From IMG/VR virus record IMGVR_UViG_3300029286_000229, positions 1 to 25,579 of that record: 25,579 nt of DNA; one strand, written 5' to 3'. Below the pieces are notes generated by a model. That model saw nothing but the letters and a program-made list of their open reading frames with translations. It made no database searches and was not told the DNA's origin. The DNA is from a virus. This document shows, one piece after another, positions 1 through 13,259 of this stretch. Positions within the stretch are counted from its first letter, which is position 1, and every line of letters begins with the position of its first letter. A program made the position numbers and the translations under genes.

Positions 1-244
1 CAGCCTTGTCAGCGGCAGCCTGTGCTGCTGCCTCTTCACCGGGATTACCTACTCCAGTTGCAGAACTTGTTGCTGCTGGTTTACCTTTATTTGGTGCTCG
101 CATGGCAATGTAAGGGTCATTGATGTCGGGTTTGCCGCCACCGCGGGTGTACCATGCTTGATCTTCTGGACTCATGGCTGCAAATTTGGCAGCATCGGCA
201 CCTTGGTACGGATTTGCTTCTCTTAAAAATTCTATTGATCTCAT
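1..244 (-). CDS. Partial CTS-bearing internal head protein candidate, 3' end outside window
   Basis: The reading frame is open from an ATG at 244 to the window edge (81 codons seen). The protein starts MRSIEFLREA, the seventh copy of the N-terminal motif shared by the genes up to 4784. The visible part has no recognised domain: a region rich in Asp, Pro and Gly containing SPEDQAWYTRGG, then an Ala/Gly/Ser-rich stretch. The start is supported by the motif and by AAAGGA nine nucleotides upstream. A late-promoter-like AATAAATA lies directly after the stop codon of the Nudix gene, so this gene can be transcribed separately. By analogy with T4 internal proteins, the first nine residues would be a capsid-targeting leader cut after Glu9. 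Function unknown. Confidence 0.75.
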   Translation of the reverse strand, partial: MRSIEFLREANPYQGADAAKFAAMSPEDQAWYTRGGGKPDINDPYIAMRAPNKGKPAATSSATGVGNPGEEAAAQAAADKA

Positions 245-274
245 GTGATATTCCTTTATGAATGACCTATGCTT

Positions 275-282
275 TATTTATT
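275..282 (-). promoter_or_regulatory. T4-type late promoter (AATAAATA)
   Basis: Minus-strand AATAAATA (plus strand TATTTATT), seven of eight matches to the T4 late consensus TATAAATA. It abuts the TAG stop of the Nudix gene and lies about 30 nt before the ATG at 244, leaving room for a leader with an AAAGGA ribosome-binding site. No -35 box is expected for this promoter class. Confidence 0.5.
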
Positions 283-924
283 CTATTTGCCCTGTGCTGC
301 CAATCTTGCACCATTGTTAAAACTGTTGCTGTGACTGGCAGCATTTCTGTTGCCACGTGCTTTTGACCATGCATAACCAGCTCTGTGCCCAGAACAATCT
401 TTGGTGCAAGGCGACCCCAAAAATGATAATTCATCCAACTCTTGTTTTCCAGTGTATCGTTTAATTATGGACATTGATTCCTGATCATTCAACAGAGATG
501 CTAATCCAGGATGTAGTGGGCGTGGCCAGTCGCCAAACTCTACCCATTCAGATCCTTGAGTTTCCCAATTTAACATTGGTTTAAATTCGTGAGCTACTAT
601 GGCTAAAAAATTGTAGTATCTAAATCCCGACGGATGCCTGAACACATACAACGGGATCAGTTTAAGTGGGCCGTTATACCCTGCTTCTTCTTTGACTTCT
701 CGTTTGACAGCATGTGCTGGATTTTCACCAGCGTCGATTGCACCGCCCCATGTTCCCCAGGTGTTAGGTTGCTCCACTTGTGATGATCTATGAGCTATAC
801 AAATCCGATTGGTATCGGCTGCCAGGAACAAACAACCAGCAGCTTGCTTGCCCCAGAATCCTGTTTTCTCCAAAGCATCACGATGTTCTTTATCTGACTC
901 AGTCACAAATTCGGTTGCTCTCAT
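283..924 (-). CDS. Nudix hydrolase with capsid-targeting-like N-terminus and C-terminal Cys/His module
   Basis: 213 residues. The N-terminus MRATEFVTES is the shared motif of this cluster. Residues 61-83 match the Nudix box G-x5-E-x7-R-E-U-x-E-E-x-G-U exactly (G61, E67, R75, E76, E79, E80, G82), so the enzyme should be an active Mg-dependent hydrolase of a nucleoside diphosphate linked to another group; the substrate (ADP-ribose, NADH, a nucleotide sugar or an RNA cap) cannot be read from sequence. After the Nudix fold, L-D-E165 precedes a separate module with C173, C177 and H180 (SPCTKDCSGHRAGY) and a basic Asn/Ser-rich tail, a module I remember from other phage proteins of this kind. The ATG overlaps the stop of the preceding gene as ATGA, so the two are translationally coupled. 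If packaged, it could act in the host directly after injection, for instance on products of the ART-like neighbours; that is inference. Confidence 0.9.
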   Translation of the reverse strand: MRATEFVTESDKEHRDALEKTGFWGKQAAGCLFLAADTNRICIAHRSSQVEQPNTWGTWGGAIDAGENPAHAVKREVKEEAGYNGPLKLIPLYVFRHPSGFRYYNFLAIVAHEFKPMLNWETQGSEWVEFGDWPRPLHPGLASLLNDQESMSIIKRYTGKQELDELSFLGSPCTKDCSGHRAGYAWSKARGNRNAASHSNSFNNGARLAAQGK

Positions 925-1400
925 TTGGCATCTCCAAAGATTGGTCCACCGACATACTGACCATTCTGACTTAACACACCATTGCGTAGATTGTTGATAA
1001 TGTTATCAGTGATGTTTCTGCGACGGAAATGCGGCAAAAAAATATGTGTTTCTACAGGACGATCGCCCTGCTCTGCTTGGATAGCATACATCCTGTGACG
1101 CCCGTCATGATCACGCACCTTGGCTTCTAAATTGAAATCATCGTTCTCCCAAGCTTCAGGAACTGCTATGGTTAAAAACGGTGCTCCAAACCCTTTATCA
1201 TTGATCTGTCGGCGTAGATATTGTATAGTTTCTTTTTCGTCAGGAGAGTTAACATCCAAGGGCAAGCTGAGTTTGAGGAATGTGCTGGGTCGCATGACTG
1301 TGCGTAGACCAAAGTAATCTACATCAGCATTGTGCGGAACAGCACCGAGACCTTGCCGATTGTCTATCTTTAGTTCCGTTATGAATTCCTTTGATCTCAT
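921..1400 (-). CDS. ParB/sulfiredoxin-like fold protein with capsid-targeting-like N-terminus
   Basis: 159 residues starting MRSKEFITEL, again the shared N-terminal motif. The body contains D-H-D-G-R-H-R-M at 97-104, resembling the DGxHR signature of ParB N-terminal/sulfiredoxin-like domains, which bind nucleotides or cut DNA in known families. The C-terminus NGQYVGGPIFGDAK is the part that looks most conserved from memory of related phage proteins. The gene overlaps its upstream neighbour by ATGA at 1397-1400 and its downstream neighbour by ATGA at 921-924, so it is an inner cistron of the tightly coupled run. Family assignment rests on one short motif; an unrelated fold is possible. Confidence 0.7.
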   Translation of the reverse strand: MRSKEFITELKIDNRQGLGAVPHNADVDYFGLRTVMRPSTFLKLSLPLDVNSPDEKETIQYLRRQINDKGFGAPFLTIAVPEAWENDDFNLEAKVRDHDGRHRMYAIQAEQGDRPVETHIFLPHFRRRNITDNIINNLRNGVLSQNGQYVGGPIFGDAK

Positions 1401-1600
1401 GTGTCTATCCTGTGTACATTGGTCACTATGCTGTCTTTGCCGTATTGAGCTTGCAGTAATAATCGAGCCATGGCAGGTGACTTGGCAAATATAGCCACAT
1501 CTATACTGGTAGTATACGAAGGATTTTTGACCCGCACAGACGCACTATACACATGAAATCCCGGAAGCAAGTCTTCACAGAGAAATTCTGTTGCTCTCAT
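1397..1600 (-). CDS. Small protein with capsid-targeting-like N-terminus, unknown function
   Basis: 67 residues if started at the ATG at 1600, giving MRATEFLCED. An upstream in-frame ATG at 1612 would add four residues, but the 1600 start is preferred because the shared motif begins there and because the stop of the preceding gene overlaps it as TGATG. After the leader comes one compact alpha/beta-looking domain (FHVYSASVRVKN, then AMARLLLQAQYG) with no catalytic motif I recognise. It lies within the run of coupled CTS genes and is probably made and packaged with them. The cut would fall after Glu9, leaving a peptide of about 58 residues. Confidence 0.75.
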   Translation of the reverse strand: MRATEFLCEDLLPGFHVYSASVRVKNPSYTTSIDVAIFAKSPAMARLLLQAQYGKDSIVTNVHRIDT

Positions 1601-3309
1601 CAGCAGTTCCACTTTCTCAACGCTAATGCTTTGCGTGTGGGTTTGCCATTGGGTTTTTTCATTGGCCCTTTGACTCCGCCCATCCTGGCACAGAATGATT
1701 TACGACGCTTGGCTGCTTTTGATCCTGGCTTGAGTTTGCTGGGCTTGGTAGTAACTGCCATTTGTAATTTTGAGCCTGGATTCTCTCTACGATAGCTAGC
1801 AACACCTTTGGCATTGAGACCGCCCTTTTTGCTCTTACCTGCGCTTCTACGCCAAGCTGCTGTTTCAAGAATGATTTCTTCATCGGTGAAGAAGTTGAAT
1901 ATGTCTTCAGTAAGACCACGATCAGCCATGGCCTGTTCAAAGTCATCAAATATTGCATGGGCTTGTTCTAGGCTGTATACGCTTTCTGTTACACCTTCCT
2001 CTACACCCGACTGCATCTGTTGTTTGACTGCACGAGCAACATCTCCCGCCAATGCGCCAGGGTCATTATCGCCACCGTAGTTGAGCACACTCATGATTGC
2101 ATTGTGAATCACACGGTCATCTGCACGACGAGCCATATTGGGATACATGCGCTCAAACTCAGCATACACTTGATCAGCTAGGTCATCGTATTCACCGTTG
2201 AAGCCTTCATCCAGGCCATCTGCTTGTACAGCCCCTTCGCCGTCGGCATCAAAAGCTACCATTTCTACTTTGGGCCACATACGTGCAGGCACATACAGAA
2301 TACCCGAAGTTTCGTCATGATCGATCTGGTCGCCAAAGCGAGCCATTACTGCATTATATGCCCGTTCACTGTTAACGCTAAAACCCACAGTGTCCGTATC
2401 GTCAATACCGCTGTATCCGCCTTCCGCCACACCTTGCTTCTTGAGAATATCCAGTGCGTGTTTTTCCATCTGTTTTTTGGTAATAGGTTTACCGGGTGCT
2501 TCCTTACCTTTGAAATAATCAGAACCTTTTTTATCTCTTGAACCATAGGTGCTGTGACTTACTTTGCCATCACGACCGGGTTGTGGTGCTGATTTGTCCA
2601 TTTCATTCAAGCCTTCCGCCACACCTTGCTCACTTGCTTTGGCTTTGGCTTCGGCCCTGGTACGACTGTATCCCCGTGCTGTTGCTTCTCGTTCTTGGTT
2701 AGGATATATAGATATTGCAAACATTTTTCCATCTTTAACAAAGTACCAATCTGTTGGATCTAGATCGTGTCTTTCGTCATCACCGCGATTGAACGCTCCC
2801 CTTACTCCGCGGAAAGGCCTGCCTCTGCCTTCCGCCACACTTTCTTTTTTGGCAGTCTTTGCAGCATCTTTCCAGGCCTGTGCTGTGGGGGCCTTGGGGC
2901 TGTCGGCATCTCTACTGGTACCGGCCTTCTTGCGCTTGTTTACATTGTAGTATAACCCTTTGTTCTCCTCTGAGATACTTTCGTTAGGCACACAGTTTCT
3001 TACCTGCTTGCCAGTCACAGCTGACTTTTTTGTGCCTTCTGCATGTTTTCCTGGCCAGCACTTGGTGTAACCATTGCTATCTTTCTGACCCTTTTTGATC
3101 TCCATGATATTGCCGTGTGTTTTGCACATACCACAGTCTTCACACACCATTTCCATCACAACACTTTCGTTGTGTTTCTTCTTGCCAGCACAATGAGCAC
3201 GTTGCGAAAAGCCTTTTGGATGAGAGCAATTGATACTGCTTTTGTATTTTTGACTCCAGCCTTCATCTAATTTTTTGATTTTTCCAGTTATAAATTCATT
3301 TGATTTCAT
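1600..3309 (-). CDS. Modular polyprotein-like internal protein with repeated VAEG/LDEG junctions
   Basis: 569 residues. The N-terminus MKSNEFITGK is a variant of the cluster motif, with the usual Glu9 replaced by Gly but followed by K-L-D-E16-G. Similar h-x-E-G/S/T junctions recur at VAE160-G, VAE232-G, VAE296-G, LDE368-G, VEE438-G, VTE442-S and ILE482-T, cutting the chain into one piece of about 144 residues, several of 64-72 and a basic tail of 87. The first piece is Cys/His-rich (C28, H30, H39, C40, then C56-E-D-C59-G-M-C62 and H65), suggesting zinc binding. The tail (483-569) is strongly basic, from AAWRRSAGKS to ALRKWNC, suggesting DNA binding. AAGGTGA lies six nucleotides before the ATG. 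Known prohead proteases of T4 type cut after h-x-E; that they cut here is inference. No enzyme domain was found. Confidence 0.85.
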   Translation of the reverse strand: MKSNEFITGKIKKLDEGWSQKYKSSINCSHPKGFSQRAHCAGKKKHNESVVMEMVCEDCGMCKTHGNIMEIKKGQKDSNGYTKCWPGKHAEGTKKSAVTGKQVRNCVPNESISEENKGLYYNVNKRKKAGTSRDADSPKAPTAQAWKDAAKTAKKESVAEGRGRPFRGVRGAFNRGDDERHDLDPTDWYFVKDGKMFAISIYPNQEREATARGYSRTRAEAKAKASEQGVAEGLNEMDKSAPQPGRDGKVSHSTYGSRDKKGSDYFKGKEAPGKPITKKQMEKHALDILKKQGVAEGGYSGIDDTDTVGFSVNSERAYNAVMARFGDQIDHDETSGILYVPARMWPKVEMVAFDADGEGAVQADGLDEGFNGEYDDLADQVYAEFERMYPNMARRADDRVIHNAIMSVLNYGGDNDPGALAGDVARAVKQQMQSGVEEGVTESVYSLEQAHAIFDDFEQAMADRGLTEDIFNFFTDEEIILETAAWRRSAGKSKKGGLNAKGVASYRRENPGSKLQMAVTTKPSKLKPGSKAAKRRKSFCARMGGVKGPMKKPNGKPTRKALALRKWNC

Positions 3310-3333
3310 TTAGTTCACCTTTTTCTAACAGTT

Positions 3334-4419
3334 TCATTTGTTTTTTGCTCTTCCAGCTTTCATATTGGCCAACCAGTGTGCCATGCGTTGTTTTTCACCA
3401 GAACTGTTCTTGGCAGTTTTTCTCAAACTACTTACACTGGCTTTGGTATTTACTCCCACACGTTTGGCCAGACCCTTGCGTCCAGGATTACGGCCGTCAG
3501 CAAAGTTTTCGTCAACCGAAGACTCATTGGATGTTGCAACAGGTTGTTTGGCCTTGTAGATATCTTCCCATTTGTCTGAAATAGCATTCTTTAATTCCAG
3601 CGTGGATTTAAAATTATTGTCTTGCATATACTTAATTATCCACACAGCACTAGCACGGTCTCCTGAATCAGGCTTGCGAGCATTGCTTAGATCCACGCTG
3701 AGATTTTGATCTTCTGATGGATTACCATAGTACCGCATGGTCTTTAACGCACGTTTTGCTCTATCACTTAGATGTGCTTCGTCGCTCTTGGTAATTAACT
3801 CAATCCAGGGCTTTACAAAGTCTGTGGGCTTGCGGGACGATCCAGCTGGTGTTGGTCCACGTAATACATCACGGGATTGGCCTGGTATCTGTGCTCGACG
3901 TTTGTTCAGCAATCGCCATGCTGCTTCGTCTGTGTAGAAAAACACAGGTAAGCCTTGTTGCTTGGCTGTGATCAGGATCTGTCGTGTTTCTGGACTGCGA
4001 TATTCATCTTGTTCTTTGAGCAACACATGAACTTCAGTCACAGGAGTGATTGGAATAGTGGGCTCTTTGCTAAACACACGGTCTTCTGCTTCTCTGGTTC
4101 TTGTACCATTGCTGTGTAACCATGCACGGTCCCAGTAGTCAATGGGTTTCACAATGTATCGAGAGTTAAACCAGTCACCATTGAGTTTGAACATCACAGC
4201 GCCTGATCCCACCCAGCGATGATAATCGCCAGTTATTGTTCGTGTCAAACTAAGAAAGTATGGATATCCAGCAGGAGCATACTGTTCTTCGCTGCGATTG
4301 CCGGTCACGCTGGCCAATTCAAAGTTGCCGGATTGCAGTATTCTTAACCCAGCTCTGATACTGGTGTAATGAAACAATACATCAGTTGCTCGTTCAATTA
4401 AAAATTCCGTTGCTCTCAT
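3334..4419 (-). CDS. Probable ADP-ribosyltransferase-fold protein with capsid-targeting-like N-terminus
   Basis: 361 residues starting MRATEFLIER. Residues 15-30 (LFHYTSIRAGLRILQS) resemble the first motif of ART/DarT/KptA-like folds, in which an H-Y-T strand is followed by a helix ending in a short 'IL.sG' turn; R109-E-A-E-D-R114 could supply the catalytic Glu region. T4 packages an ADP-ribosyltransferase (Alt) in its head, so this role fits the leader. The C-terminal part has V-D-E304-N followed by a basic module (305-361, GRKGLAKRVGVNT and MAHWLANMKAGR) that looks like a separate nucleic-acid-binding unit. The start ATG overlaps the TAA of the gene before it by one base, with AAGG nine nucleotides upstream. 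Catalysis is unproven; a non-catalytic ART-like fold is possible. Confidence 0.75.
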   Translation of the reverse strand: MRATEFLIERATDVLFHYTSIRAGLRILQSGNFELASVTGNRSEEQYAPAGYPYFLSLTRTITGDYHRWVGSGAVMFKLNGDWFNSRYIVKPIDYWDRAWLHSNGTRTREAEDRVFSKEPTIPITPVTEVHVLLKEQDEYRSPETRQILITAKQQGLPVFFYTDEAAWRLLNKRRAQIPGQSRDVLRGPTPAGSSRKPTDFVKPWIELITKSDEAHLSDRAKRALKTMRYYGNPSEDQNLSVDLSNARKPDSGDRASAVWIIKYMQDNNFKSTLELKNAISDKWEDIYKAKQPVATSNESSVDENFADGRNPGRKGLAKRVGVNTKASVSSLRKTAKNSSGEKQRMAHWLANMKAGRAKNK

Positions 4420-4784
4420 TATACATACCTTGCTAGTTCATCTTCACCTAAATCTTGTATGCGATTGGGCGGGATTTTAGTTGTGGAGAAGTACCATCCG
4501 TGGTCATATGTCAATGGAATACCCGTCACATCAATTTGCAACAATGTCAATGGATCATCGCTACCCTCTGACTTGGCGTACATCCATCCACCGACCATAC
4601 TTAGTTCTCTTTGTAACTTGACCTTATCACCTTCGTCTACAACCATAAATGCTTTGCCATCATACGGATCTAGCCCAGCATATAGAATTTCTTCTGCGTT
4701 TTCAGTACTGGTAATATGGTACGCAGTTTTAAACTCATGGTCATGATGTGTCCTTGATTCAGTGACAAATTCAGTTGCTCTCAT
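4419..4784 (-). CDS. Small ART/KptA-like fold protein with capsid-targeting-like N-terminus
   Basis: 121 residues from the ATG at 4784 (MRATEFVTES). An ATG at 4796 would add MGTQ, but 4784 is preferred because it starts the shared motif and forms an ATGA overlap with the stop of the 2006-residue gene. Residues following the leader (AYHITSTENAEEILYAGLDP) fit the opening strand-helix-turn of DarT/KptA-like ART folds, and the later IDVTGIPL and IPPNRIQDLGE match the strand and C-terminal segment I associate with such small phage proteins. It would be a second ART-like protein beside the 361-residue one. The catalytic Glu cannot be assigned, and the domain call is from motif memory only. Confidence 0.72.
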   Translation of the reverse strand: MRATEFVTESRTHHDHEFKTAYHITSTENAEEILYAGLDPYDGKAFMVVDEGDKVKLQRELSMVGGWMYAKSEGSDDPLTLLQIDVTGIPLTYDHGWYFSTTKIPPNRIQDLGEDELARYV

Positions 4785-7700
4785 TTGGGTTCCCATTGCA
4801 TACTTTTACTACCTTTAACAGTAGGAGTAAACCCTTGACCTCTGTAGAACTTGGTTAATTTACTTTGACTCACTTGTCCTTTGTCCCAAGGAAACAGTGT
4901 CAAGCTGATGCCATCTTCTCTTGCCATGGCTTGTAGTTCTTGCATGGCACGTGACCCAACACCTTGACGTAGCGGATATGCTTGAATCCATTTGACTTCA
5001 ACTGCGCCGCGCTTGCTAAAGCTAGGAACAAGTTCAAACATAGCAAACTGTTGGTCATCGCCTTTGCCCCAGACCATAACGTGATTGTTCTGCATGGTGT
5101 ATGGATACTTTGCGTAGACTCGTTCAATCCATGCCTGTGCAGCATCATTGTTGCCTAGTTTGATTCTTATTGGCTCTTCTTCTTCGGCTACATCTTTCAT
5201 TAGATGTTTAGCATCGCCGGACTTCTTCCAAGCATCCCACATGGCCTTGCCAGGCGGCAATTGATTTCTACTTGGTACAATAGTGTTACCCAACATTCTC
5301 ACATACGCATAGATGTTACGTGCTATACCGCGGCCTTGATATTCAAGTTTCAAGCTGGTAACTGCTGACACTAGACCATTTTTGCTGGGTCTAAATTTTG
5401 CAAGACCTATCTGTTGATAATTGTCGTCTAGCACTTTGACTTGAAAATATTCTTTACCATTTATTTCAATCCCAGTGGCACGATATGTCAGCCCATCAAA
5501 AATTTGGGTGTCGTTGAACGCTGGATTGAAAACATCTGGATTGATAGTTTCATTTAAGTTGTTGGCCATTACTTGTGGTAAGAAACTGGCGGCAATGTGT
5601 TGGCAAGTGTTAAAAATGTCAGCATTATCAGTGACCTGCAGATTGAATGGATAGTCTGTGGTAGGATGCTGTGTGGGGTCTTGCCACCCAGCATAACATT
5701 TTTCAATACCAAAGTCAGCTAACAAATCAGTGCAACTCTCTCCATACCTCTCATCCATGTCATGCACACAAGGACTCAATGTAGTGACCATGATGGCATT
5801 GGGACCAATACGACCGTGACGTTTGAGATGCTGGTCTATGGCCACTCGTTCAGCATGGCGTCGTGTTCCGTTGAGCCCAGGCAAGTTGATAGCATAAGTG
5901 TGATTGTTTTTGTTATCAATCAAACAAGCAGCCACACGTCCATACTTTTCTGGATCAGTCTCATGACCACGATGTATCATGTTGATGCACTTTTTCAGCA
6001 CATTATCTAGTTTACCAAGTTTTGTGATCTCTTGGCTTTCATCCATATCTTCTTCACCAGGCTCGTCTAGGTCGTGTATGGGCAAGCCAAGGCGTTTGAG
6101 CTTGTGACTGTACATGTTTTCTAGCTCTTCGCTGCCAAACGCCAACACAGTATGCGGCGGGCCTTGATTGTAATGAGACTTGTCGGCTTGATCAAGATCG
6201 CTAATGTCTTGTCCCAACTGATACCAATCTTGGGTGTCGCTCACATCCACTTTGATTGTGCCAGCGGGCATTTTGGGAGGTGTTTCAGGACCAGTTGGTT
6301 TTTGATTGCCTAGAGCATCCAGGTCACGACGTAATCGTTGTTCTAACACTGTGATGTTTTCTGACACTGATTGAGAACGTAGTCTCACTGAGAAGTTACT
6401 GGCATCCACTTCTGGATTTGCCTGCATTGCAGTAGCCACCCATTCTTGACCTCGACGCCAGGCTTCTGTTTGATTTGCTGCCTGTATTACAAATACTGGT
6501 TGATTGGAAGATCTATTGTATACTTCCCACTGTGTTTGTGCCATTGGGATATCTAATTCAACGTCTTCTACTCCTGGAATTGGGGTGGATGTGTATTGGT
6601 ATTGTTGTTGGCTTGCTGCAACACCCATCTCTGGTACTACTGTAACTCCAGCCTGCATACGCCCAGGATTACTACGCATCCAGTTTATGGCCACACGGTT
6701 GGCATCACTCTGTACATTGCCTACTCCCGAGAAGCGATGTATTTCTTGACCGTCCGGATTCAAGATCAACCAGTTGCCAGTGAATGTTTGCTGACCTTGA
6801 CCCGGACGAGTTAAAGTTTGCGGTATGCCAACGTCAACAATGCCACCTTGTGCTGCATCTGAATTATTGCCCTGGCGGGTACGAACACCGTACAATTCAG
6901 GAGCTTCGCCACGCATGCCTAACGCCAAACGTGCTTCTTGTTCAGCTTCGGGTCTACTGGTATTGCTCAACTCTCTCACAGTAGAGTTGTCGCTGATTCT
7001 ATAGATTTCCCATGGACCTGGGCCAGTGGGCACCAAGTTGCGTGGCTGTCCTTCGCGTGGTACATTTTGTGTGCTAACGAATGCATTTGATGATCGCGCT
7101 GGCACTGTCGACGCCCGGAACAGGTGAGAACGGCCAGCGGTGTTGCCAAATATATCTGGTCTTGCTTCTCCAGCAGCTCTTATAGCGTTTAGCTCAGATG
7201 ACGCACGAATTTGTATTTCTTGCCCAGGATTACCTTGTGGGCTTACATACCAGATTGGTTGTTCAGTCTGTTGTGGTTCAATTTCACGCACTTCAATGTC
7301 AGTTATCATACGAGAATTTTGTTCACGACCTTGAGTTATGAACTGTTCAGCAGCCTCACGACTTGGGAATCTACGCAACACATTGTTGTCAGACTGGCCA
7401 GGAGCTCTAGCAAAGCGGTTCATGTCATTCATCCAAATGCCCCAGTTGCCTGTACTTGGTTGTGCGGCAGATTGTGGGCCAGGTTGTTGCTGATCACCAC
7501 CACGGGCAACCACAGTGCCAGCACGATCAACTAAACTAAAGTCATGTGGATTATTTTCCCCTGAAACAAACTGTCTAAACTTTTGTACAGCGTCTTCTTG
7601 ACTTGATGCTGTGATCGATGATCTATTGTAACCGGCTCGAGCATCATAAACGCTATAGGACAATGATGGCTTCGGATCCTGATATGGTCGTAGCGGTTTT

Positions 7701-10700
7701 GCCTGTAGAGTGTTCCGTGCGCTGGCCCAGTCTGGGTAGTTGCCTGGTTCTATAGCCTTGGCGATGGCTTCTTCCTTGCTAGAAGCAACAATTTCAATGC
7801 TGGCAAAATATCCAGGACGACTCACATCCCACCAATATTTTTGTCCCTTTGGTGTCTTGCCTTTGGCAAGATTACGGGCGAGATTCTGTTGCTCTAGTTC
7901 TTGAAAAGTTGCTTTTCTAAAGTCTTTGATGGCCTGTTGCGTTTCTTTGCTTAGTTTGTCGCCGACTTCTTTGCTATTGCCCTGCAACGATACCATGTAC
8001 TTGGCAAACTCTTGAATCATATCACCATATTCGTCCTTGGTACCGTTAGGATTCAACAGTTTGTACAGCTTCTTGAGATATTCTTGGCGATACTTTTCAG
8101 GATCCATCGCAGCGTCCAGGGCCACAGTAAATCGTAATAGGGTATCTTCAATCTTGCTGAAGTTTGAATCCAACCAGTCGCCACCCGGACTCCGGAATTC
8201 AATGTATCCTGTCTTGGTATTGATACTGGTATATTTTTCTGTAGTGCCTGTGTGAATGGCCTTGGTGGCAATGTCTTCCATGTGCTCACGCATCTTGTCC
8301 ATGACCTGCGGAGCAATATCAGGATTGCGTTTCAGCATGGTTTTAATTTTGCCAATTGCTGACTTGGCATAGTTATTGCCTGAACGTCCAAACAGTTCTA
8401 GCACATATTCATCGCCCATGAGCAGGGCCAGTTTGACATAGTCCAGTTTGTCAAGACTGTAGTTGGGTACTGAAATGTTGATATGCAAGCCAGTGCTGTC
8501 ATTGGTATAGCAACCAGACTTGTCTGCCCAAGCCTTGACCTTGTTTAGATCTGAAATCATTTCATCTATGGGCATAGGCGGACTAACAAATTCTAAACCT
8601 TCGTCGCCAGGGTTGTCGCCTTCTAAACTGCCGTCAGGTTCCACAACATAGGTACCTGCTTCACGACGGCCGCCATGGTAATTTCTACTGGCGTTCACAG
8701 GTTTACCCATGTAACTGGAGAATTCATCAGCCACTTGATCTATATCCATGTCACCGTCGTTGCCCTCATTAGCGTCAGTGTAATAGGGCCATTCAATATC
8801 AAAGTTGCTTTCGATGTCACTCATGGTTTGATATTTGTCATCCAAGAAACTGCCTTCATCGTACTCGTCTCGTTGTTCTTCTGCAAACGCTTCAAATGCA
8901 TCATTGAAGACACGGCCTTGATCTTCAAAAGCTTCCAGCACAAACTGTTCTTGTAATTCATCAAGTCTGGCACTCAGCAGTTGAGAGAAGTCTTCGCTCT
9001 CTTGTGGCAAGTCAGGATTGGCATCCATGATTTCGTCACGAGCTTGTAGCATGGCTTCATCACGATCAAACAAGTCATTAACGTTGACAAAGTCACGCAT
9101 GTAATCTACTCCATCGCGTGTCCAAGCTTCAGCAGTTTGTTCCTGCTGCCATTCCTCGTACTCGTTTTGTATTTCTTCCATTAGGTCATCTACTGCACGG
9201 CGTCCATTGTGGTCACCGTCATGGAAAAAGTCTCGAATGTCACTGAAGCTTCTGGTACGTTGATCCTGATCGTAGTCTGGTTCCCAGTCAGGTTCTTGTT
9301 CATCGACCCCAACATCGGGCACAATCATTTCAAATTCCATGCCTGCCTGTGCGCCTGTTTGTGCTGCTAACTGACGCAGATTGGTGCTGGTCATCTTGAT
9401 TTCAAACAGATCTTTCTCTTTGAACTCTCGCAACATCTTGTTTAAACCGGCTGTGAGTAATGCAGGATGACCTTGTGAATCTGTTTGTAATCCAAGTTTG
9501 TTGGCTTCCTTGCCCACAGCACCTGGACGCACATCTCGGGTCAAGGCCATGACAAATCTTGGATCGCGTGCCTGTGCCTTTGTGGGTATGTATCCTGACG
9601 CTTCTTCCAGTGTGACCCCATCAAACATTTCAGGCTGTTCTTCAGCCCACTGTCGCATGATACGGCCAGCCATGGCGTTGGCTTGGTCTTCCCAAGGGCT
9701 ACCAGTTTCACCAGCATCTATAGGCAGGGGATTTCTTTCATCCTGCTGACGATGTGTCATCTCATGGGCCATGGTGCGAAGTATATCCAACACATGGCGT
9801 CCCGCGGTGGCCAAGATCAGTGTGTTGCTTTCTGGTTCGTATTGACCAAAGCTACCGTTCTCTTGACTCCATTCTGGTGTTGTTTCCAAACGCAATCTAG
9901 GTGGATTCTCTAATTTAAGTTTATCTACACAACTGGCATAGAAACGATGTAGGATCTTTTTCAAATGGTCAAGTTCTACACTTTCATCCACTTGTTCTGA
10001 TTCAGTACCAGCAGGGTGATCTTGGCCAGCATACGCAGTACCTGGATACCAGTAATCACGCATGCCGTAATTGACTTTCTTTCTGGCAGCAGGCTTACGA
10101 TTTAAACTCAACTCACGATCTTGTATTGCTGTCTTGGCATCTTTTAATTTGCCAATGCAACCCATATTTCTCAACAATTTAAATGCAATGTTCTCGCAGC
10201 CAAACTCACCATTCTTTTCCAGGCCAGTTTGGCGCATTGTTTTGATCTTGTCCCACAGCTGATTCACAGCATCTGCATTGCCGGACTTGATAGCTGAATG
10301 TATTCTGGCATCAAGATCAGCTGTTTTGTGTTGTACACAAGAGTCATCTATGCTAGCACGACGGCGCTGTGGAACTTGTACCCAGTCACCATTCTTTACG
10401 CTGTAAATGCCTTGACTCACATGCTTTTGATCACTGGGCTGCACATACAGTTCCACTGGAACGCCAGCAATCTTTATGTCATGCTCGGCATTATACTGAT
10501 ATTTTTTTGCATTGAACAGTTCTTGATACACAGGATCGTCAGGCATGTCCACCACAAGGTGTAGATCAATGTCTGAATGGCGAGTATAAGAATAGGCAGC
10601 ATTGCTACCTGATATGGTAATGTCCTGAATGTTGAGATCATCAACACCCAGGAATTCTTGAAAATTTGACGCAATTGCCAGCAACTTGTCACGCACATCA

Positions 10701-10801
10701 GGTAACAAGTGCTCGTCTGACCCCCACAAACGGGGGTTCAAACGTTGATGGAATTTTACAGCATCGGCGAGATTAAAGTTGTCAAGATCATGGAAATTCA
10801 T
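4781..10801 (-). CDS. Giant multi-enzyme protein: NTase, metallopeptidase, amidoligase, repeats, deaminase, two GNAT-like domains
   Basis: 2006 residues, 6 kb, one uninterrupted frame. Modules in order: Pol-beta-type nucleotidyltransferase (about 1-240; G65-S66 ... D77-x-D79); zincin with H346-E-M-T-H350 and possible third ligand E371; amidoligase-like ATP-dependent ligase (about 465-905; GMEFE 487, GLEFVSPP 735, TGLHINIS 770, IEFRSPGG 867); about seven degenerate repeats (985-1480); a small module (1510-1585); CDA-fold deaminase (H1649-A-E1651, P1677-C1678, C1690); GNAT-like domain with QGRGIA at 1822; GNAT with RQGVGSRAM at 1945. Candidate prohead-protease sites fall at several module borders (VDE273-S, LEE400-A, MDE1588-S, LNE1751-T, VAE1873-E). 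It lacks the N-terminal leader of its downstream neighbours but is coupled to them by ATGA. GATAAATA lies four nucleotides before the ATG. Probably virion-associated and injected; that is inference. Confidence 0.9.
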   Translation of the reverse strand: MNFHDLDNFNLADAVKFHQRLNPRLWGSDEHLLPDVRDKLLAIASNFQEFLGVDDLNIQDITISGSNAAYSYTRHSDIDLHLVVDMPDDPVYQELFNAKKYQYNAEHDIKIAGVPVELYVQPSDQKHVSQGIYSVKNGDWVQVPQRRRASIDDSCVQHKTADLDARIHSAIKSGNADAVNQLWDKIKTMRQTGLEKNGEFGCENIAFKLLRNMGCIGKLKDAKTAIQDRELSLNRKPAARKKVNYGMRDYWYPGTAYAGQDHPAGTESEQVDESVELDHLKKILHRFYASCVDKLKLENPPRLRLETTPEWSQENGSFGQYEPESNTLILATAGRHVLDILRTMAHEMTHRQQDERNPLPIDAGETGSPWEDQANAMAGRIMRQWAEEQPEMFDGVTLEEASGYIPTKAQARDPRFVMALTRDVRPGAVGKEANKLGLQTDSQGHPALLTAGLNKMLREFKEKDLFEIKMTSTNLRQLAAQTGAQAGMEFEMIVPDVGVDEQEPDWEPDYDQDQRTRSFSDIRDFFHDGDHNGRRAVDDLMEEIQNEYEEWQQEQTAEAWTRDGVDYMRDFVNVNDLFDRDEAMLQARDEIMDANPDLPQESEDFSQLLSARLDELQEQFVLEAFEDQGRVFNDAFEAFAEEQRDEYDEGSFLDDKYQTMSDIESNFDIEWPYYTDANEGNDGDMDIDQVADEFSSYMGKPVNASRNYHGGRREAGTYVVEPDGSLEGDNPGDEGLEFVSPPMPIDEMISDLNKVKAWADKSGCYTNDSTGLHINISVPNYSLDKLDYVKLALLMGDEYVLELFGRSGNNYAKSAIGKIKTMLKRNPDIAPQVMDKMREHMEDIATKAIHTGTTEKYTSINTKTGYIEFRSPGGDWLDSNFSKIEDTLLRFTVALDAAMDPEKYRQEYLKKLYKLLNPNGTKDEYGDMIQEFAKYMVSLQGNSKEVGDKLSKETQQAIKDFRKATFQELEQQNLARNLAKGKTPKGQKYWWDVSRPGYFASIEIVASSKEEAIAKAIEPGNYPDWASARNTLQAKPLRPYQDPKPSLSYSVYDARAGYNRSSITASSQEDAVQKFRQFVSGENNPHDFSLVDRAGTVVARGGDQQQPGPQSAAQPSTGNWGIWMNDMNRFARAPGQSDNNVLRRFPSREAAEQFITQGREQNSRMITDIEVREIEPQQTEQPIWYVSPQGNPGQEIQIRASSELNAIRAAGEARPDIFGNTAGRSHLFRASTVPARSSNAFVSTQNVPREGQPRNLVPTGPGPWEIYRISDNSTVRELSNTSRPEAEQEARLALGMRGEAPELYGVRTRQGNNSDAAQGGIVDVGIPQTLTRPGQGQQTFTGNWLILNPDGQEIHRFSGVGNVQSDANRVAINWMRSNPGRMQAGVTVVPEMGVAASQQQYQYTSTPIPGVEDVELDIPMAQTQWEVYNRSSNQPVFVIQAANQTEAWRRGQEWVATAMQANPEVDASNFSVRLRSQSVSENITVLEQRLRRDLDALGNQKPTGPETPPKMPAGTIKVDVSDTQDWYQLGQDISDLDQADKSHYNQGPPHTVLAFGSEELENMYSHKLKRLGLPIHDLDEPGEEDMDESQEITKLGKLDNVLKKCINMIHRGHETDPEKYGRVAACLIDNKNNHTYAINLPGLNGTRRHAERVAIDQHLKRHGRIGPNAIMVTTLSPCVHDMDERYGESCTDLLADFGIEKCYAGWQDPTQHPTTDYPFNLQVTDNADIFNTCQHIAASFLPQVMANNLNETINPDVFNPAFNDTQIFDGLTYRATGIEINGKEYFQVKVLDDNYQQIGLAKFRPSKNGLVSAVTSLKLEYQGRGIARNIYAYVRMLGNTIVPSRNQLPPGKAMWDAWKKSGDAKHLMKDVAEEEEPIRIKLGNNDAAQAWIERVYAKYPYTMQNNHVMVWGKGDDQQFAMFELVPSFSKRGAVEVKWIQAYPLRQGVGSRAMQELQAMAREDGISLTLFPWDKGQVSQSKLTKFYRGQGFTPTVKGSKSMQWEPK

Positions 10802-12569: not shown

Positions 12570-13259
12570 ATGTATTTACAAAACAAATATACCCGTTGTT
12601 ATTATAATATTATTCAACGAGCCAACATCAGAATTCTTAAACCCCCATACGAACATCATCATATAATTCCCCGGAGCCTAGGCGGAAATAATTTTAAAAA
12701 AAACATAGTCAAATTAACAGCACATGAACATTTTGTGTGCCACCTTTTGTTAACAAAAATGGTCGAAGGTAAGAATAGAGAAAAGATGGTTTATGCAGCC
12801 TGGGCAATGGCAAATCAAGAAAATCAAAATCAACAACGACACAAGGTTACTGGAAAAATTTATTCTATTCTAAAACAAGAATATTGTAAGGTTAAATCAT
12901 TGCATACTAAACTTAACAATCCCATGCATGACCCTGAAATTCGATTACGGCATCAAGAAGCAATTACTAAACGAGGGAAAACTTTAGGGAACACTGGACA
13001 TAAACGTGGTGCAATGTCAGAAGAATTAAAAGCAATTCTTCGTCAAAAAACAATAGACTCAATGACCAGCGAAAGACGAGAACAGATTAAACAACAACAG
13101 TTAAACAGGACACCGGAACAGAAAGAAAAATATGCATTTGCTCATTCTAAAAGAATATCATGCATATATTGTCGTTGTGTATGTGCTCCTGGAAACTTTG
13201 CCCGTTATCACGGTAATAACTGTAAATTAAATAATCTACAAGTGGCGGGCATTCAATAG
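12570..13259 (+). CDS. HNH homing-type endonuclease with C-terminal zinc finger
   Basis: 229 residues on the strand opposite to nearly all neighbours. Residues 28-41 (EHHHIIPRSLGGNN) and the following TAHEHFVCH at 50-58 form the HNH beta-beta-alpha-metal motif of free-standing phage endonucleases. The middle is a long basic Gln/Lys/Arg-rich region likely to bind DNA (NUMOD-like repeats are possible). C198-x2-C201-x12-H214-x3-C218 fits a C2HC zinc finger often found with these enzymes. AAGGAG sits eight nucleotides before the ATG. The gene is visibly richer in A than its neighbours and its last seven bases overlap, tail to tail, the end of the minus-strand gene at 13253. This suggests a late insertion between two late transcription units. 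It probably promotes its own spread to related phages. Confidence 0.88.
   Translation: MYLQNKYTRCYYNIIQRANIRILKPPYEHHHIIPRSLGGNNFKKNIVKLTAHEHFVCHLLLTKMVEGKNREKMVYAAWAMANQENQNQQRHKVTGKIYSILKQEYCKVKSLHTKLNNPMHDPEIRLRHQEAITKRGKTLGNTGHKRGAMSEELKAILRQKTIDSMTSERREQIKQQQLNRTPEQKEKYAFAHSKRISCIYCRCVCAPGNFARYHGNNCKLNNLQVAGIQ

Follow-up and report, generated by a model that had tools for sequence, protein, structure and literature searches.

Why should a row of neighbouring viral genes that encode unrelated proteins all begin with the same nine residues? The question is raised by a 25,579-nucleotide stretch of viral DNA (IMG/VR record IMGVR_UViG_3300029286_000229; hereafter the window), in which seven neighbouring minus-strand open reading frames (ORFs) at positions 1–4784, mostly overlapping, each start with a nine-residue leader of the type MRATEFVTE. 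A preliminary description of the DNA had proposed that the leader directs a set of proteins into the capsid for injection. We read the array as one half of a two-part cargo code in large T4-like phages: stand-alone genes would carry the leader, long polyproteins would carry bare h-x-E linkers (an aliphatic residue at P3 and Glu at P1), and the prohead protease would mature both into a large set of injected effectors under rapid exchange, with modules moving between the two formats. We assign this reading a probability of roughly 0.6. The strongest evidence for capsid targeting by the leader, as judged from sequence comparison, is the exact coincidence of the leader end with polyprotein junctions. 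The preliminary description had the array and the leader right and missed what proved most informative, the link to the neighbouring polyprotein of 2006 residues.

A common leader on a row of unrelated genes

The window is identical to its parent IMG/VR contig (G001; 153,873 bp, 232 ORFs) from position 32751 onward. All seven consecutive N-termini listed in the preliminary description were recovered on the minus strand, with ORF starts at 244, 924, 1400, 1600, 3309, 4419 and 4784, each preceded within a few bases by a GGA/AGG-type sequence. For the last of these the start was taken as the ATG at 4784; an in-frame ATG upstream, at 4796, would bury the leader. Six of the seven fit the pattern M-R-x-x-E-F-h-x-E strictly. 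The claim of one leader common to all requires qualification for the gene starting at 3309, which has the variant MKSNEFITG-KIKKLDE-G, with Gly instead of Glu at residue 9 and the next h-x-E not reached until residue 16; in three relatives the orthologous genes keep the Glu (MKSHEFITE, MKSSEFITE and again MKSSEFITE). The bodies that follow the leaders do not resemble one another (best E 0.095), as had been stated. The shared leader on this row of unrelated genes is real.

Strict leaders occur in 7 of the 232 ORFs of the parent contig, in one contiguous run at 31386–37534. A search for further leader genes outside the window had been suggested, and the seventh ORF of this run, a LysM-type gene (MKLFDFLSE) directly beyond the window edge, extends the array there. 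Internal copies of the leader core are absent from the contig (0 in 49,377 residues) and rare in relatives (about 4e-5 to 8e-5 per residue), so that only ~0.01 leader starts would be expected in the contig by chance. An M-R-A-T-E-F-h-x-E codon pattern (with Arg2 allowing Ser) was found in at least 119 IMG/VR stretches, and a control pattern in which F-E replaced E-F had no matches in the same scan. The collected loci hold 249 distinct leader proteins in 45 single-linkage body clusters, a number that is approximate because multidomain proteins chain one cluster of 141 and a few singletons may be chance matches to the regular expression.

The preliminary description had attributed the conservation to the peptide rather than to the DNA. 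This applies to the codons for F, L, T and V, which differ among leaders as genome usage predicts, and does not apply to codon 2 and the Glu codons. Specifically, all Arg leaders of the parent contig use AGA for Arg2, as do 203 of 222 Arg leaders over all loci (genome usage of AGA, 21%), GAA is over-used, and same-residue codon pairs differ in 30 of 95 cases compared with 49 expected. The near-constant AGA and the shortfall in codon divergence are what would be seen if the common 5′ end were a DNA feature for translation initiation or recombination (an ATG-AGA-GCA... start in gene shuffling) with no role at the protein level. That explanation is very improbable: the codons for F, L, T and V show the expected divergence, the conserved P5, P4, P3 and P1 residues lie at codons 5–9, and P3 and P1 recur at junctions that have no start codon. 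The bias towards AGA at codon 2 is also seen in other genes (18 of 39). Pure DNA-level conservation of the leader is rejected in view of the codon data, codon 2 and the Glu codons excepted, and enrichment of the T4 late-promoter motif TATAAATA was not found in the leader island.

Leader ends and polyprotein junctions

Directly upstream of the array on the same strand lies a leaderless polyvalent-type protein of 2006 residues (4781–10801, minus strand). Comparison of relatives reveals that the same body may be a stand-alone leader gene in one contig and a module of such a long protein in another (in the following, a slash marks the candidate cut). MRATEFVTE/SRTHHDHEF in the window corresponds to NDLAE/ERTHHPDHKF inside a 2017-residue protein of relative G003, and MRANEFLIE/ENKNDAAQAW of G002 corresponds to DVAE/EEEPIRIKLGNNDAAQAW inside the 2006-residue protein of the window. 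Similarly, a separate leader gene of G004 (MRAAEFVIDE/NFADG) matches SVDE/NFADG inside the 361-residue protein of the array (VDE site at 3508–3516), and VLDE/VAMNPTRLKQ of G005 matches LFE/IKMTSTNLRQ inside the 2006-residue protein. In the latter protein, the modules that follow the junctions LFE/I (9401–9409), LNE/T (5549–5557) and VAE/E (5183–5191) are stand-alone leader genes elsewhere. The Nudix gene of the array joins a small module at ELDE/L (430–438), and in G003 and G004 this module has a gene of its own (MRAREF...); the body of the 121-residue leader protein is fused as a C-terminal polyprotein module at LAE/E in G003.

To quantify this coincidence, 158 junctions in 18 families were compared, with leader-containing junctions excluded. 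An h-x-E motif falls exactly at the body boundary in 59% of cases (family-weighted) versus 3.45% at other offsets, and in 11 of the 18 families it does so in the majority of cases (binomial p about 2e-12). Leaders carry Phe at P4 in 100% and Glu at P5 in 95% of cases, preferences that are essentially lost or at background at polyprotein junctions. The junctions keep the aliphatic P3 and Glu P1; these two residues helped to define the junctions selected, and the unconditional figure is the 59%. Junctions with the cut residues and without P4 and P5 would be expected if the N-terminal part of the leader served targeting and h-x-E cleavage, a division also seen in the T4 signal, because a module within an already packaged polyprotein would need only the cut site.

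The modular protein of 569 residues encoded by the variant-leader gene (1600–3309, minus strand) holds further candidate sites on the same strand: VAE/G at 2830–2838, 2614–2622 and 2422–2430, LDE/G at 2206–2214, VEE/G at 1996–2004 and ILE/T at 1864–1872. Fifteen of its 25 module starts (60%) lie within three residues of an h-x-E compared with 18% expected, although these starts are not independent. A third modular protein, of 672 residues with repeated VAE/G or VVE/G sites, is encoded elsewhere in the parent contig (27160–29178 of G001; locus L088). It shares a module with the 569-residue protein, and its G002 version, of 1261 residues, starts MIIDNLF...TIVE/G.

How such long proteins are divided has been considered before. 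Polyvalent proteins are predicted to be packaged and injected, with self-processing by a metallopeptidase proposed (Iyer et al. 2017; PMC5512222), and packaging of polyvalent, ART and Nudix proteins has been predicted from MuF or portal-domain fusions and gene neighbourhoods (PMC5512222, PMC9503650). Use of a leader of the capsid-targeting type was not found in these two papers. The 2006-residue protein combines unrelated domains of effector type, as polyvalent proteins do, with nucleotidyltransferase, amidoligase, deaminase and two GNAT-like domains in one polypeptide, together with an HEMTH metallopeptidase-like module. The domain kinds of the locus (ART, GNAT and nucleotidyltransferase, with tentative ParB-like and metallopeptidase assignments) and the long multidomain architecture are those of polyvalent proteins; here, domains alternate between a fused module and a separate tagged gene. 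Self-processing of the polyproteins once injected, through a zinc metallopeptidase domain that they carry themselves, with the h-x-E junctions not being prohead-protease sites, would accord with that proposal and with the HEMTH region, which has a weak match to DUF6782 metallopeptidases (E 0.046). We nevertheless consider it a doubtful account, as the junctions share h-x-E with stand-alone leaders at the same residue, and similar sites occur in the 569-residue protein and the third polyprotein. The shared site points instead to a prohead protease, and release of the polyprotein modules by the same S77 protease that would process the leaders is the option that these comparisons favour, if with less assurance than leader processing itself.

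Probable capsid targeting and the prohead protease

The leader recalls the capsid-targeting sequence (CTS) of phage T4, as had been suggested on the basis of the sequence MKTYQEFIAE. The T4 record confirms that internal proteins IPII and IPIII begin in this way, with IPI beginning MKTFKEFTSTTTPVSTITE. Both systems place a short basic N-terminal leader, M-[KR]...E-F-[ILV]-x-E/, on unrelated bodies. The likeness extends to charge and the E-F-h-x-E core, and not to length as first described, the present leader having nine residues versus ten in T4. In the T4 CTS, residues 4 and 7 serve targeting and residues 8 and 10 processing (PMC9026906); shared here are the Phe of T4 residue 7, the aliphatic residue 8 and the Glu at 10. 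An aromatic residue 4 is present only in the LysM-type leader MKLFDFLSE and in leaders of the cultured freshwater Synechococcus phage DSL-LC02 (MKTYREFVAE, MKRFLQFLSE and MKSFNQFLSE). We therefore call the leader CTS-like rather than T4 CTS itself, given that it is one residue shorter and mostly devoid of aromatic residue 4. The longer leader of IPI has a parallel in the variant leader of the 569-residue protein. Unlike the T4 internal proteins, the present set comprises a contiguous array of at least seven genes, enzyme cargo, ~45 body clusters and exchange with polyprotein modules.

Absence of a gp21-type prohead protease had been named as an observation that would refute the capsid-targeting reading, and Peptidase_S77 (PF03420) was in fact detected in the relatives G003, G005, G007 and G009 and in seven more contigs (G014, G016, G017, G018, G019, G020 and G023). 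The protease is present in 9 of 10 leader-bearing contigs of at least 190 kb and in 0 of 14 control genomes; the contigs without it are mostly shorter fragments. In the close relative G003, the gene resides within a portal–core–protease–scaffold–capsid block with a gp23-like capsid gene, and the capsid proteins of G003, G005 and G007 conserve L-[KSA]-E/[NS] at the expected end of the gp23 propeptide. Cultured phages Slicko01, SCTP-2, K566 and DSL-LC02 also encode S77. The leader is thus very probably a capsid-targeting sequence processed by an S77 protease, and injection of the bodies as effectors appears likely, if a step less so. The earlier proposal of a packed and injected protein set gains support from the leader-linked S77 genes and from the junction comparison; packing and injection themselves are inferred from sequence.

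Docking, cleavage, retention in the head and injection may be envisaged as follows. During prohead assembly, the Arg/Lys...Glu-Phe part of the leader would dock the tagged protein on a gp22-type scaffold core; the S77 (gp21-type) protease would then cut after h-x-E, so that the body is released from its leader. Bodies (ART-fold, Nudix, ParB/Srx-like, DUF6321 and others) would stay in the head, enter the host with the DNA on injection and act within minutes of the start of infection. As h-x-E sites also part the modules of long fused proteins, the same protease would release those modules, which would move between stand-alone and fused formats in evolution.

Entry into the head need not imply injection. 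The tagged proteins could be core, scaffold or DNA-condensing proteins, or be degraded during maturation, a view that finds a parallel in the T4 core proteins gp22, gp67 and gp68, likewise substrates of the prohead protease (PMC9026906), and several bodies are basic, with isoelectric points (pI) of 9.8 (361-residue protein) and 9.2 (569-residue protein). Other bodies are acidic or neutral (pI 4.7, 6.5 and 7.7), several are enzyme folds with conserved catalytic-type residues, and the bodies are exchanged from one relative to the next, as core proteins are not. A purely structural role is on this evidence improbable.

Several observations weigh against the capsid-targeting model. (i) Exact-boundary h-x-E is not the majority state in 7 of the 18 junction families, and the break points of the 2006-residue protein overall show no h-x-E enrichment (23% versus 17% expected). 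(ii) The 2006-residue polyprotein has no N-terminal leader, and its route into the head is left unexplained by the model. (iii) Aromatic residue 4 of the T4 CTS (Tyr in IPIII) has no counterpart in the MRATEF leaders. (iv) Homologues of the 361-residue protein in Dickeya phage JA29 and in the Salmonella phage Sen-NF record have no leader. (v) One leader-bearing contig of 262 kb gave no S77 match, and S77 was not found in the parent contig of the window. The whole portal–scaffold–protease–capsid block, corresponding to about 3–30 kb of the 352-kb relative G005, is missing from the parent contig. The lack of S77 there is attributed to truncation, the contig covering part of a larger phage and not its head block.

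Precedents exist for parts of this arrangement. T4 Alt is trimmed by gp21 and then injected (PMC9026906); like the 361-residue protein, it has an ART fold and a short N-terminal segment that closes with a candidate gp21 site. The fold match here, in contrast, is to DarT/Tpt1, and the leader sequence and the target may differ. In phage P1, DarB likewise has an N-terminal packaging signal on an injected anti-restriction protein (PMC9024508), although no signal common to the Dar proteins was identified. In addition, Alishewanella phage vB_AspM_Slicko01 has eight adjacent genes with a common leader (L081, 9854–15524) alongside its S77. This leader differs, being of the type MKIxxLYES[LIM]LEE/G, and marks four ART paralogues homologous to the 361-residue protein and four unrelated genes; the ART paralogues carry that phage's own leader in the form MKIEQLYESILEE/GISPIVYHST. 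By sequence, the Slicko01 array is a separate instance of leader marking, and the phage is in culture. The preliminary description knew of no such array of enzymes. In the open-licence literature, we likewise found no description of a leader-marked enzyme array or of modules set apart by prohead-protease sites, which does not prove absence; CTS-bearing sets of divergent internal proteins are already known in T-even phages.

Injected phage proteins are mostly not known, because virion proteomics exists for few phages. Should the two-part cargo code be correct, a packing tag and a cut site would allow the injected effectors of uncultured large phages to be listed from sequence alone, as dozens of families mostly without known function, new enzymes of the ART fold among them. 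The code would further account for the division of polyvalent proteins into functional units, unify T4 internal proteins with polyvalent proteins, and supply additional short tags with which to load capsids with proteins.

Cargo proteins and neighbouring genes

The enzyme assignments proposed for the bodies were evaluated individually. The 361-residue protein (MRATEFLIE/R; 3334–4419, minus strand) had been called ART-like, a view supported by its predicted fold: most of residues 10–290 of the AlphaFold model have a predicted local distance difference test score (pLDDT) of mostly 85–95 (about 90 in the core), and the leading Foldseek matches in the PDB are DarT and Tpt1 (tRNA 2′-phosphotransferase; probability 0.9–1.0, best E 2.1e-4, moderate TM-score). 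An ART-family profile search against PDB sequences yielded nothing meaningful. Residues H17, S57, R60, E110, E112 and R114 do not vary among 21 distant homologues, and H17, S57, R60, E110 and E112 fit a putative NAD+-dependent transferase. Homologues with other N-termini include those of G007 (MFVHDLFE/RASSVLFHYT) and Vibrio phage K566 (MKKFNEFANELAE/AVNDTVYHGT). The gene order around the ART homologues in the Sen-NF record (L150; PV359490.1, 108 kb) matches that of the Dickeya jumbo phage JA29, and it is worth checking whether this record is mis-assembled or carries the wrong host label.

Assignment of the 213-residue protein as a Nudix hydrolase (MRATEFVTE/S; 283–924, minus strand) is corroborated by Pfam NUDIX (E 4.8e-13) and PHROG MutT/NUDIX (4.4e-27) matches; the Nudix domain spans residues 27–144 and is followed by the small C-terminal module. 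For the 159-residue protein (MRSKEFITE/L; 921–1400, minus strand), with an HDGRHRM motif, the ParB-like label agrees with the identity of the best PDB fold matches (ParB, Noc, KorB and Srx) and less with their strength (E about 0.07–0.2; model pLDDT 63.7), so that the protein is probably ParB/sulfiredoxin (Srx)-like, at low confidence. The remaining leader genes on this strand encode proteins of 67 residues (MRATEFLCE/D; 1397–1600), conserved in G002 and G004, and 121 residues (MRATEFVTE/S; 4419–4784), the body of which is a C-terminal polyprotein module in G004 as well as G003, and the 5′ part of a gene truncated by the window edge (MRSIEFLRE/A; 2–244; 320 residues in the parent contig). In other contigs, cargo behind the same leader includes GNAT with ParB_N, DUF6267 and, above the Pfam cut-off, ART-PolyVal PF18760 (L233). 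Together with the ART-fold and Nudix bodies of the window, the ART-PolyVal and GNAT–ParB cargo is similar to injected effectors, which speaks for the capsid-targeting reading. A frequent 133-residue leader cargo gave no tblastn match in cultured phages.

The 569-residue protein ends in a DUF6321 domain (E 1.7e-21). DUF6321 proteins occur in about 500 cyanophage and pelagiphage records, hold many h-x-E sites and are probably head-internal; the orthologue in S-P4 is labelled structural in its GenBank annotation. In DSL-LC02 (L146, 10589–12586), the DUF6321 gene is flanked by those for the two terminase subunits, small and large, and the MKSFNQFLSE gene adjoins it in the gp16–gp17 region; in S-P4, the DUF6321 gene adjoins that for the small subunit.

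Two further features were recorded. A small gene of the parent contig (30242–30454), conserved in relatives, starts MRAHEIMED/ASAGSSSTGS and resembles the capsid propeptide junction YLKE/NASSGSTGSG; it possibly represents a further variant leader. On the opposite strand, an HNH-type homing endonuclease gene occupies window positions 12570–13259 in a late-gene region, and a GIY-YIG-like ORF of G003 (162914–163474) is situated in a nearby but different gap.

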